Of a stretch of 61,141 nucleotides of DNA, positions 2,328-5,572 are shown piece after piece (positions within the stretch are counted from its first letter, which is position 1; the number at the start of each line of letters is the position of its first letter). The translations under genes and the position numbers were made by a program. Source of the DNA: Eubacterium sp. (lineage in GTDB: Bacteria; Bacillota; Clostridia; Oscillospirales; Acutalibacteraceae); contig JAFWKC010000048.1 of the NCBI GenBank assembly GCA_017514345.1, positions 1 to 61,141 of the forward strand. The letters are read 5' to 3'. The notes below the pieces were generated by a model. The model ran no database searches and was not told the DNA's origin. It saw only the letters and a list, made by a program, of their open reading frames with translations.

Positions 2328-3050
2328 CTATTCCAAGTTATCAGTTAACAGCATTATCGCGCTGAGCGCCGCAACGGGCGCCGTCTGGGTGCGCAGAATA
2401 CGCTTGCCGAGAGTTGCGATTTTTGCGCCGCTGTCGCGAAGCAGAGCAACCTCGCCTTCGTCAAAGCCGCCCTCGGGACCTATATAAACCGAAACGCTGT
2501 GAACGTCGCTGTTTACAAGGCTTTTCAGGCTTTCGCCGCCGCCCTCATAAAACAGGATTTTCAGCTCGCTGTCGTCGTTTTTGACAGCCTCGCTTAGTGA
2601 AATCTGCTCGGATATTTCGGGAATTATGCCGCGTCCGCTCTGCTGTGCCGCCTCAAGCGCAATTTTTCTGTAACGCTCGTTTTTTCGTTTTGCGCCCTTT
2701 TCGTCGGGACGGCTGACGCACCGCTTTGTCAGCGTCGGCACAATTTTTGTAACGCCGAGCTCCGTGCATTTTTGTATAATATCCTCGAGCTTGCTGCCCT
2801 TCGGTACGCCCTGATAAATCGTAACCCTGCAGTCAGGCTCGCTTTCGCATACCTGCTTGTAGCAAACGGTCAGCACAACCGCATCCTTGCTGATTTCTTC
2901 AATCTGACAGCCGAAGTCGCTGCCCTGCCCGTCAGTCACCGTCAGCATATCGCCGACCTTCATCCTGAGCGATTTTGCAATATGGCGCGCCTGCTCGCCT
3001 TCGAGTACAATTGACTTGTCGGGAGTGTAATCTATAAATAATTTCTGCAT
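2328..3050 (-). CDS. rsmE: 16S rRNA m3U1498 methyltransferase RsmE
   Basis: A 240-residue SPOUT-class methyltransferase that N3-methylates U1498 of 16S rRNA using S-adenosylmethionine. The knotted C-terminal SAM site is clear: YIGPEGGFDEGEV near residue 190 and LGKRILRTQTAPVAALSAI near 215. The N-terminal PUA-like part begins FIDYTPDKSIVLEGEQARHI. Length is normal. It lies 8 bases after the P1B-ATPase-like gene and 9 bases before the O-antigen-ligase-like gene, so it should be co-transcribed from the metal-responsive promoter at 4362-4390 unless an internal promoter exists. A housekeeping methyltransferase in such an operon is unusual. Confidence 0.95.
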   Translation of the reverse strand: MQKLFIDYTPDKSIVLEGEQARHIAKSLRMKVGDMLTVTDGQGSDFGCQIEEISKDAVVLTVCYKQVCESEPDCRVTIYQGVPKGSKLEDIIQKCTELGVTKIVPTLTKRCVSRPDEKGAKRKNERYRKIALEAAQQSGRGIIPEISEQISLSEAVKNDDSELKILFYEGGGESLKSLVNSDVHSVSVYIGPEGGFDEGEVALLRDSGAKIATLGKRILRTQTAPVAALSAIMLLTDNLE

Positions 3051-3058
3051 AATATATA

Positions 3059-4015
3059 CTATTTAATCCTCAGTGACCTTAGTGAATTAAGTATTGCAAG
3101 TCCTGCTATGCCCACGTCGGAAAAGGCGGCAAGCCACATCGGCAGCTCCTTTTCCATAAACACCGCAAGCACAAGCACTACCGCCTTTACGGTAAGCGCA
3201 AGGATGATATTTTCGCGCGAAATAATGACAGCCTTTGACGCGGCTTTTTTTGCAAAAGCAAGACCGTGCTCGTTCCCGTCGGGAACGATAATTCCCTCGC
3301 CGCTGCCGTTTTTGTGAAGCTTTTCGAGCGCGTTCGTATGATAAATATAGATGCCCTTTCGCGTACACGCGTCAATAGCGCACGAAAACGAAAGCGGAAC
3401 GGAAATCACTATCGCGCAGGGACAGCCGATAACAAGTACAGACAGTCCGCGGTAAATCCATTCCTTCCACTCGCCGCCCATAAAAAGCGGCGGAATTACG
3501 ATAACAAGCAGTGAAATCGCGCAAATTACGGGCGTGTAAATCTTTGCAAAATGCGCTATAAAGCTTTCCGTATCGCCTGATTCGTGGACGTGCTCGCCGT
3601 GGTCGTTATGTTCAATTTCGCGTATCTGCTTTTTGCTCTTTGACAGCGCAAGACCGTGAATATATTCGCCGACAGCGTACAGCAGCATTACTGCACAGCC
3701 CTCGTCAAATTCCTTTATTGCAAACGCGCCGAGCGAAGCAATACTAATCATAAAACACTCGTTGAAAATCTTGCCCTCAAATATGTCCTCGATAGCGTTT
3801 CTGACTACGCCGAAGCCGACGGCAATATACGAAACGCCGAAGCAGATAAGGTGCATAAACGCAGGCAGAGAGGTAAACTCGCCGATTATGTAGCCCGCGG
3901 CAAAGAACACCGCGGAAATTATGATTTTTGTAAGCTCCTCGCGCTTTACCGCTTCAAAATTTTCGTGGTTGTGGGAGTGGTCGTGCGAGTGATTATGTGT
4001 GTGCTCGTGTTCCAT
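3059..4015 (-). CDS. P1B-type heavy-metal ATPase-like membrane protein lacking A, P and N catalytic domains
   Basis: A 318-residue protein (ATG 4015, chosen because GAGGAG at 4029-4024 is ideally placed; the upstream GTG at 4024 overlaps that RBS). It starts with a His-rich tail (about seven His in residues 1-20). It then follows the ZntA/CadA membrane scaffold: paired helices near 31-75, helices near 85-118, IYTPVICAISLLVIVIPP near 159-176, the metal-binding CPC (198-200) in IGCPCAIVISVPLSF, and the last two helices ending LPMWLAAFSDVGIAGLAILNSLR (D300). The actuator domain with TGE is replaced by a His-bearing linker (about 131-150). The phosphorylation and nucleotide domains are gone: there is no DKTGT, and only about 35 residues (225-262) join M4 to M5. 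The frame is intact. It cannot be an ordinary P-type pump; a channel, carrier, metal buffer or sensor are possibilities. It sits directly behind a SmtB-type repressor. Confidence 0.85.
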   Translation of the reverse strand: MEHEHTHNHSHDHSHNHENFEAVKREELTKIIISAVFFAAGYIIGEFTSLPAFMHLICFGVSYIAVGFGVVRNAIEDIFEGKIFNECFMISIASLGAFAIKEFDEGCAVMLLYAVGEYIHGLALSKSKKQIREIEHNDHGEHVHESGDTESFIAHFAKIYTPVICAISLLVIVIPPLFMGGEWKEWIYRGLSVLVIGCPCAIVISVPLSFSCAIDACTRKGIYIYHTNALEKLHKNGSGEGIIVPDGNEHGLAFAKKAASKAVIISRENIILALTVKAVVLVLAVFMEKELPMWLAAFSDVGIAGLAILNSLRSLRIK

Positions 4016-4020
4016 ATGTA

Positions 4021-4302
4021 TCACTCCTCGATATGCTCAATCGCCATATTAATTATCGTTTTTACGTGGTCGTCGGCAAGCGAATAAATCATTCTTTTGC
4101 CGTCGCGGCGGCATTTAACAAGATGATTTTGCTTTAGCGCTCTGAGCTGATGCGAAACAGCCGTCTGTGATGCGCCGATTTTTTCTACAATTTGCGTTAC
4201 GTTAAGCTCGCTTTCAAAAAGCGTAAGCATTATTTTTATCCTCGTAGGGTCGGAAAACATCTTGAAAAGCTCCGCCATTTCGTAGATTTCTTCGTCTATC
4301 AT
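4021..4302 (-). CDS. ArsR/SmtB-family metal-sensing repressor (alpha5 Zn-type)
   Basis: A 93-residue winged-helix repressor. The recognition region is VTQIVEKIGASQTAVSHQLRALK (35-57), followed by a beta-wing. The C-terminal helix carries D77, H79, H90 and E93, the D-x-H-(10)-H-(2)-E spacing of the alpha5 zinc site of SmtB/ZiaR/CzrA sensors. Metal binding in this family releases DNA. Start ATG 4302 follows GAGGTG at 4312-4307; an upstream GTG at 4314 overlaps that RBS and is rejected. Its stop lies 5 bases before the start of the P1B-like gene, so the two are an operon. A perfect palindrome at 4326-4346 in its leader is the likely autoregulatory operator. Confidence 0.9.
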   Translation of the reverse strand: MIDEEIYEMAELFKMFSDPTRIKIMLTLFESELNVTQIVEKIGASQTAVSHQLRALKQNHLVKCRRDGKRMIYSLADDHVKTIINMAIEHIEE

Positions 4303-4325
4303 AATGCACCTCACTTGCAGGTTTT

Positions 4326-4346
4326 ATTCATATGACTCATATGAAT
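4326..4346. promoter_or_regulatory. Palindromic operator for the SmtB-type repressor
   Basis: ATTCATATGA and TCATATGAAT form a perfect 10-1-10 palindrome. The CATATGA unit recurs once more to the right (4347-4353). It lies just downstream of the expected transcription start of the promoter at 4362-4390 and upstream of the repressor RBS. AT-rich ATATGA/TCATAT palindromes are typical of SmtB-family sites. Confidence 0.75.
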
Positions 4347-4361
4347 CATATGAACGAATGC

Positions 4362-4390
4362 ATTATATATCAATTTATATTAAAAGTCAA
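4362..4390 (-). promoter_or_regulatory. Promoter of the metal-responsive operon
   Basis: On the minus strand TTGACT (4390-4385), a 17-base spacer and a consensus TATAAT (4367-4362). The palindrome at 4326-4346 falls in the initially transcribed region, fitting repression by the SmtB-type protein. Confidence 0.8.
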
Positions 4391-4397
4391 ATATTAT

Positions 4398-4871
4398 CTA
4401 AAATACCGTTACCCTGCCGCTTTCGCTGACAACAATCAGCTCCGTTTCGTCAAGCGTATAGCCGCGCGAAGCAAGAAAATCGCGCAGCTTACCCTCGCTG
4501 AGTCCTACGGCGCGAAGCCCCTCGTCGCTTAGCGTTTTGTTCTGATATACGATGTATCCTGCGCCCTCGCGGACGGGTGCAAAGTTGAAATCCTTTGGAT
4601 TAAGACGGCGCTTTTTCGCCTGCGGCAAAAGGCTTATGCTTCCGTCGCGTTCAAGCACGGCAGTATCAATGTCCGCAATATTAAAATAACCCTCGCCCCT
4701 TGCGGCAGCCGCAAGGTCGGAATACGACACGCGGTGCTTTTTCATATTTTCCGTAAGAAATCTGCCCTCGTGCATAAGAAAAACCTCTGATTTTCTTCCC
4801 CGTCCGTTAAGCAAAATTACAATCTGTAATATAATCACAAAAACCAATAACGCGGCGTATAAAAATTCCAT
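4398..4871 (-). CDS. Single-helix membrane protein with a YetF/DUF421-type C-terminal domain
   Basis: A 157-residue protein with one N-terminal membrane helix (about 3-22) and a soluble domain. The stretch VFLMHEGRFLTENMKKHRVSYSDLAAAARGEGYFNIADIDTAVLERDGSISLL resembles the cytoplasmic domain of YetF/DUF421 proteins, where 'left to enable ... G-x-x-x-x-x-x-x-x-x-x-x-L ... L-R-x-x-G-x-x-x-x-x-x-V-x-x-A-x-L-E-x-x-G' is the usual pattern. The usual three-helix membrane part is reduced to one helix. Function is unknown. RBS GGTGATG precedes the ATG. It ends at the promoter of the leftward metal operon. Confidence 0.6.
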   Translation of the reverse strand: MEFLYAALLVFVIILQIVILLNGRGRKSEVFLMHEGRFLTENMKKHRVSYSDLAAAARGEGYFNIADIDTAVLERDGSISLLPQAKKRRLNPKDFNFAPVREGAGYIVYQNKTLSDEGLRAVGLSEGKLRDFLASRGYTLDETELIVVSESGRVTVF

Positions 4872-4963: not shown

Positions 4964-5572
4964 ATGAAAAAATATTATTTTACGGCAGGAATTGCTGGAA
5001 TTGTCGTTAACTTCCTGCTGTTTGCCGTTAAGCTTTACGTTGGAAACGCTTCGTTTTCGCTGACAATATACTGCGACGCCGTTAACAATCTCGGCGACAC
5101 GTTTTCGTGTATGCTCGCAATGCTCGGCTTTGTGTTTGCAGTAAAGTTCGGCGACGATATACGTTCAAAGCGAACTGAGAGCCTTATAACGTTTGTCATC
5201 AGTATGATTATCGCGTTTACGGGACTGTTTTTCGTATACCGCGGACTCGACAGGCTGATGTATCCGTCGGGCGTAGTTTACGGCAACAAATACGTATTGA
5301 TAATCATAGGAACTATTTTTGCAAAGGCGGCGCTCGGCGCGCTGCTTGTGAGGCTGAACAAAAAATCGCCCTCGCCGATAATTGCGGCGCTGGCGCTCGA
5401 CAGCTTTCTTGACTGTTTTGTAACGGCGTTCACGCTGATGGGAATGACGCTCGTTACAAGGGTGAATTTTGCATTTGACGCTTATTTTGCATTTCTGTGC
5501 GGGGGAATTATTACGGCAGAAGCGATTAAGCGAATCGTAAAAGAAACTAAATTTTTAATTTTCGGAGAGTGA
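4964..5572 (+). CDS. CDF-family-like cation transporter, membrane domain only
   Basis: A 202-residue membrane protein resembling the transmembrane half of cation diffusion facilitators, which exchange Zn, Mn or Fe for protons. Helix 2 carries CDAVNNLGDT (D-x-x-N-N-x-x-D, residues about 38-46). A later helix carries ALALDSFLDC, where CDF proteins place the paired metal ligands. The cytoplasmic dimerisation domain is absent; the protein ends after the last helix. The conserved H-P-x-G-H-G-R loop after helix 2 reads DDIRSKRTES. The substrate cannot be told. The phosphoesterase gene follows 4 bases later. Confidence 0.7.
   Translation: MKKYYFTAGIAGIVVNFLLFAVKLYVGNASFSLTIYCDAVNNLGDTFSCMLAMLGFVFAVKFGDDIRSKRTESLITFVISMIIAFTGLFFVYRGLDRLMYPSGVVYGNKYVLIIIGTIFAKAALGALLVRLNKKSPSPIIAALALDSFLDCFVTAFTLMGMTLVTRVNFAFDAYFAFLCGGIITAEAIKRIVKETKFLIFGE

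Follow-up and report, generated by a model that had tools for sequence, protein, structure and literature searches.

The window, by which we mean the whole 61,141-nucleotide stretch analysed (contig JAFWKC010000048.1 of the Eubacterium sp. assembly GCA_017514345.1), encodes a protein that is the membrane half of a zinc-type (ZntA/CadA, PIB-2) pump with all of its ATP-using domains removed. A PIB-2 zinc-type pump at this same locus is the ancestor of the stripped protein, and the catalytic domains seem to have been lost at least twice. P-type ATPases have been understood as an inseparable motor and pathway, and here a conserved natural protein is the pathway alone, which allows us to ask what the bundle itself does, whether it conducts, exchanges, occludes or just binds. 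We found no description of a membrane-only P-type ATPase among the matches listed in open-licence PMC, as far as their titles and abstract openings extend, or by a term search of PMC10654040.

Our preferred reading, which we hold tentatively and at slightly less than even confidence, is that the stripped protein acts as an ATP-free metal carrier derived from the pump and induced by excess metal. The actuator, phosphorylation and nucleotide domains were lost in frame, the metal pathway and a metal-sensing repressor were kept, and a transition metal, probably Zn(II), may still cross the membrane bundle without ATP. Since the membrane potential, negative inside, would draw cations inward, export could be useful only if it were coupled, for instance to protons. 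A conduit that lacked coupling and was induced by excess metal would harm the cell, and it counts against this reading that the coupling step must be assumed. The analysis shows the anatomy of the protein, its conservation and ancestry, the selection on it and the survival of the pathway residues; we infer the identity of the metal, its transport, direction and coupling, and control of the gene by the neighbouring repressor.

Anatomy, locus and conservation of the stripped protein

The gene and the parts of its product lie as follows.

3059..4024, minus strand: gene for the domain-stripped PIB-2 ATPase homologue, 318 aa from the ATG at 4015 or 321 aa from the GTG at 4024; CPC at residues 201-203, K280, D303, E108 and E120
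3569..3622, minus strand: short M2-M3 loop, residues 135-152, where the actuator domain sits in full-length orthologues
3236..3322, minus strand: short M4-M5 loop, residues 235-263, where the P and N domains sit in full-length orthologues
3947..4015, minus strand: His-rich N-terminus, residues 4-26, with 8 His and no Cys

The eight-helix bundle of the PIB-2 membrane domain, including MA and MB, is present, and structure prediction, compared with ZntA, gave a bundle that matches ZntA minus its catalytic domains. The M2-M3 loop has 18 residues as against 114-115 in full-length orthologues, the M4-M5 loop 29 as against 255-257, and Pfam returned no HAD-type match in the window protein. The phosphorylated Asp of DKTGT, the actuator with its TGE and the P and N domains, by which a P-type ATPase is recognized, are all missing. 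The protein is thus a PIB-2 pump descendant that fails the defining features of P-type ATPases, and it cannot carry out ATP-driven pumping. The E1-E2_ATPase model alone can label such proteins as pumps, a warning for annotation.

We refer to the contiguous stripped form in the genus of the window as class A. The following features surround the gene.

4021..4314, minus strand: ArsR/SmtB-family repressor with the alpha5 site DxHx10Hx2E (D81, H83, H94, E97)
4326..4346: perfect 10-1-10 palindrome, the presumed operator, with a second, overlapping CATATGA unit reaching to 4354
4362..4390, minus strand: TTGACT-17-TATAAT, promoter-like by consensus match only, immediately upstream of the palindrome
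2328..3050, minus strand: rsmE-type 16S rRNA methyltransferase gene
4398..4871, minus strand: upstream DUF421/YetF-type gene, found in 11/14 class A and 16/20 full-length loci
4964..5572, plus strand: divergent gene for a 202-aa Cation_efflux (CDF) membrane domain, present at 11/14 class A and 10/20 full-length loci

The class A gene lies directly behind the ArsR gene and directly ahead of rsmE in all 14 loci, and in the window the repressor stop overlaps the GTG of the stripped-protein gene. The repressor exceeded the cut-offs of the HTH_5 and NF033788 profiles, consistent with the winged helix of the family, and D81, H83, H94 and E97 were unchanged in 18 of 18 aligned rows. In the excerpts of PMC8790569 used here, DxHx10Hx2E is the alpha5 metal-site motif. 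Sensing of Zn, Co or Ni is reported for repressors that carry it. An exact copy of the 19-base core of the palindrome occurs in the window's genome only at its own locus. We infer that the adjacent repressor would bind this palindrome and regulate the stripped gene. A perfect repeat of at least 8-1-8 was present in half of the class A leaders (7/14), the known ArsR/SmtB type being 12-2-12, and the same test found none in the remaining 7. The promoter/operator region of three class A loci (L070, L071, L075) looks swapped for other, partly shared sequence. In the 202-aa CDF protein there is no space for the usual C-terminal domain.

These results bear out the sequence-only reading, which had described a ZntA/CadA eight-helix plan with CPC, a final Asp helix and a His-rich N-terminus, lacking the TGE actuator, DKTGT and the nucleotide domain, in an operon with an alpha5-type SmtB repressor and with a perfect 10-1-10 palindrome in the leader. 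It had also proposed that structure prediction should give a P1B bundle without cytoplasmic catalytic domains, as was obtained.

We identified 31 non-catalytic proteins, which fall into five classes: 14 in class A; five in class B (L078-L082; 395-406 aa, actuator gone, 84 residues of the P/N stretch left); six in class S, the stripped form of a second lineage that includes genome G660; five, from four genomes, in class D (L154-L158; 567-578 aa, without actuator, P/N stretches with decayed motifs); and the single protein of genome G999 (L140), class T. In the genus sample class A was present in 14 of 80 genomes and class B in five. Three of the 14 class A members, which also occur in a named collection, were 83, 81 and 68% identical to the window protein, and class B members were 72-84% identical to L080. 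Among the matches listed, the family sample (398 genomes) held the window's own form and one of class B, the order sample (394 genomes) one further stripped form, that of G660, and the sample of the taxonomic class (391 genomes) one more, that of G999. In the phylum sample (398 genomes, E <= 1e-40, a cut-off that diverged forms may escape) the contiguous form was found solely in the window's genome, and the second genome past the cut-off matched only in part, within a frame of 655 aa. In none of 1593 matching plasmid records did a single place cover 80% of the protein. The homologue search suggested by the sequence-only reading therefore yielded proteins of the same length in 14/80 genus genomes, every one behind a repressor gene, and others in another family.

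In ratios that are rough because synonymous sites are near saturation, dN/dS between the class A gene of the window and those of six relatives was 0.059-0.183, a seventh pair being saturated; for rsmE the same six pairs gave 0.079-0.144 and the seventh 0.165, and the repressor gave 0.012-0.060 and the DUF421 gene 0.18-0.35 where computable. Class B gave 0.03-0.10 in nine of ten pairs, the tenth being saturated, and 0.10-0.14 over its P-domain remnant (four pairs); class D pairs gave 0.10 and 0.16, and the single S pair examined was saturated. The stripped proteins of classes A and B are kept under purifying selection. A non-functional relic, which the sequence-only reading had listed as an alternative, is contradicted by the class A ratios of 0.06-0.18. 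The loss of the catalytic domains and the usual presence of a second pump in the cell are what one might expect of a relic, but the frames are open and the junctions at the same place in 14 genomes and a second lineage exists, and we regard a relic or an assembly artefact as highly improbable.

Descent from a full-length pump and a second stripped lineage

Full-length orthologues occupy the same locus in sister species (for example L083 and L090), and their best aligned segments are 41-63% identical to the stripped protein. We compared 20 such loci, one from another genus and 19 from the genus of the window, in which 42 genomes have a full-length form. An ArsR homologue was upstream in 17 of the 20; rsmE lay within the stretch yet was non-adjacent in four. 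Unlike the stripped protein, these orthologues are 649-703 aa long, and DKTGT, GDGxND and TGD were found in 20/20 and LTGE[SP] in 19/20, while DKTGT, LTGE[SP] and GDGxND were found in none of the 31 non-catalytic proteins. Two rows were left out, L016 (wrong frame) and L117 (longest frame without DKTGT). L018 and L029 looked contiguous in the hit table and are actually ordinary full-length pumps. A contig-edge piece, L103, was left out of all trees, and the larger tree also omits L110 and L113, whose long branches had come together, and L142, whose retained columns are identical to those of L018.

Classes A and B group as a single clade, with support of 100/97 in the smaller and 99/96 in the larger tree, and this clade sits among the full-length orthologues (98/94 and 93/94, respectively). 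Class B genes lie elsewhere in the genome than the class A locus, and no ArsR-like gene was found near any of the five, the upstream stretch being ended by contig ends in L080 and L082. A part of the P domain is conserved in class B, in which GDGxND has become GKGxND and DKTGT is gone. The AlphaFold model of class B (pLDDT 43, pTM 0.39) was set aside as evidence.

A survey of 220 genomes from the same family as G660 yielded five more stripped proteins from three further genera, 47-57% identical to that of G660 by BLAST, and also the five class D proteins. For one of the class S proteins, from G1643, the initial match holds a TAA, and the frame taken is open for 383 codons. The M2-M3 and M4-M5 loops have 13-19 and 51-55 residues in class S, 27-30 and 253-255 in class D, and 16 and 37 in class T; a loop of 13-30 residues cannot accommodate an actuator domain. 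In two class S proteins (L106, L159) LTGE occurs in M2-M3 loops of 19 and 15 residues, where the actuator once sat. These strings could be actuator remnants or chance; TGE occurs in 7 of the 31 non-catalytic proteins, as LTGE in those two, and TGD in 4 of the 31.

Classes S and D group together (100/99), apart from A and B. Trees joining A and B with S were rejected (AU p 0.0005), as were trees joining A and B with S and D (AU p 0.006). G999 groups beside S and D with modest support (92/81). We had considered G660 and G999 as separate losses, but the larger tree puts G999 beside the G660 lineage, and for this reason we claim at least two losses and not three. The series of loops and motifs across classes S and D suggests an order in which the actuator was lost first, the catalytic motifs then decayed, and the P and N domains were excised last. 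Because intact, decayed and stripped forms exist in related species, this order is testable.

Half of the class S genes (3/6) immediately follow an ArsR-type gene whose end they overlap, and two of the six come after a gene that we take to be TetR-like. The stripped gene of G660 has no ArsR-like gene within its 10 kb, and none was found near the five class D genes or the class T gene. The absence of an ArsR-like gene near all these D and T genes, 3/6 S genes and, with the contig ends noted above, the five B genes counts against a carrier induced by excess metal. All three S-linked repressors have an LCVCE box and only one has the full alpha5 motif, so the inducer may differ there. The gene before all five class D genes (in G1716, G1660, G1761 and G1607) presumably encodes a class II fructose-bisphosphate aldolase, a metal enzyme. 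Near the stripped gene of G999 (2261-7209 of L140) are what we take to be a gene for a COG0523-like GTPase that contains a run of His, and genes resembling those of methanol methyltransferases.

A conserved form without its motor, arising through at least two losses, suggests that the metal pathway is useful without ATP. We can envisage, with somewhat less confidence than the carrier itself, a wider pattern in which membrane domains of P-type pumps persist as autonomous ATP-free carriers. Primary transport would then have reverted repeatedly, at least twice, to secondary or facilitated transport, via graded losses (of the actuator, of the catalytic motifs, then of the remaining domains) and often beside a metal-sensor gene.

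Residues of the metal pathway

CPC, DxG(x)7N and N(x)7K, which are PIB-2 signatures in the excerpts of PMC6305203, were present in 31 of 31 non-catalytic proteins. In ZntA, according to excerpts of PMC6305203 and PMC8880997, E202 is the exit Glu, C392, C394 and D714 make up the metal site and K693 is a built-in counter-ion. Mapped via structure 4umv, the equivalents of all five residues were found in every one of the 31 proteins (14 A, 5 B, 6 S, 5 D, 1 T). They survive every loss seen, which marks them as the set required for whatever function the bundle retains. Among a channel, a carrier, a buffer and a sensor, the conservation of the exit Glu and counter-ion Lys favours a carrier, as far as sequence can indicate. 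Other positions count against this reading: those of the ZntA funnel residues E184 and D348 are not Glu or Asp in the stripped proteins, nor in the full-length orthologues, and that of E214 is Glu in 3/6 class S proteins only and Met in class T.

Class A has fixed residues of its own, C90 (14/14), H123 (13/14), H229 (13/14) and D218 (13-14/14); at the positions of C90, H123, D218 and H229 the 20 full-length proteins have N, Q, G and G. C90, H123 and H229 are potential new ligands, and would lie at the cytosolic end; we count them in favour of the carrier. An alternative is a membrane-tethered metal buffer or sensor, in which the His-rich tail together with the CPC/Asp site would hold metal without net transport. 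The 8 His within residues 4-26 of the window protein fit this idea, as does the control of metallothioneins by SmtB-type repressors described in excerpts of PMC8790569. The exit Glu and the counter-ion Lys have their roles in release, not in binding, and are not obviously needed by a pure buffer. The full-length orthologues have 3-16 N-terminal Cys in 20/20, and 13 of 14 class A proteins have lost them. We consider a buffer or sensor unlikely.

With PIB-2 ATPases such as ZntA and CadA the stripped protein shares the membrane bundle, the three signature motifs and a neighbouring ArsR/SmtB-type gene; it differs in the absence of the actuator, phosphorylation and nucleotide domains. Pseudoenzymes are likewise conserved enzyme descendants without catalytic residues, but here entire catalytic domains are missing and a transport path is left. 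ArsB with or without ArsA, and solitary BioY, are membrane transporters that work with or without an ATPase partner; they have other folds and their ATPase is a separate subunit, whereas here it was formerly part of the same chain. KdpFABC is also a P-type system, with conduction and energy use split among subunits. KdpB retains its catalytic domains, unlike the stripped protein.

Missing domains and other pumps in the cell

If the missing domains were supplied in trans by a separate gene, the protein would be half of a split pump. We searched 21 genomes with one full-length query at E <= 1e-5 and found no separate gene for an A, P or N domain; the matches were only stripped genes, long ATPase frames and contig-edge ATPase pieces. 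Even the class D proteins, with P/N stretches still in place, no longer have DKTGT or GDGxND, and a split pump is very unlikely. The sequence-only reading had named two findings as fatal to its proposal, a lack of homologues of this length elsewhere, or missing domains that turned up in an adjacent gene or had been lost in assembly. Neither was encountered: such homologues exist, the search of the 21 genomes gave no domain gene, and 14 genomes agree.

A second CadA-type pump, counted at >= 61% identity to that of the window's genome, was present in 17 of the 19 genus genomes with class A or B (in G450 and G458 as contig-edge pieces) and in 8 of the 42 with a full-length orthologue (Fisher p 2.4e-7, kinship among genomes being ignored). 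The two genomes that lack it, both with class A, have a completeness of 74% and 84%. Sixteen of the remaining genus genomes have the CadA-type pump without either form and three have none of these; no genome of the 80 has both the stripped and the full-length form. The frequency of the second pump in stripped-form genomes suggests that stripping may have followed its take-over of pumping.

This distribution suits equally well an accessory or regulatory subunit that would associate with the cell's complete CadA-type pump, tuning it or delivering metal to it, and to that extent it counts against the carrier. A partner of a full ATPase encoded elsewhere was among the alternatives of the sequence-only reading. 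The 16 genomes with the CadA-type pump and neither form speak against such a partner, as does G999 (96% complete), which has a stripped protein but otherwise only weak matches to the P1B query (<= 35% identity, in frames of 908-959 aa that presumably belong to other P-type classes). In the window's genome the CadA-type gene is on another contig, where no copy of the palindrome was found within 3 mismatches. We regard a subunit role as rather unlikely, though the best of the alternatives to an ATP-free carrier. The gene before the CadA-type gene in the window's genome is one that we take to encode a small HMA-like protein.
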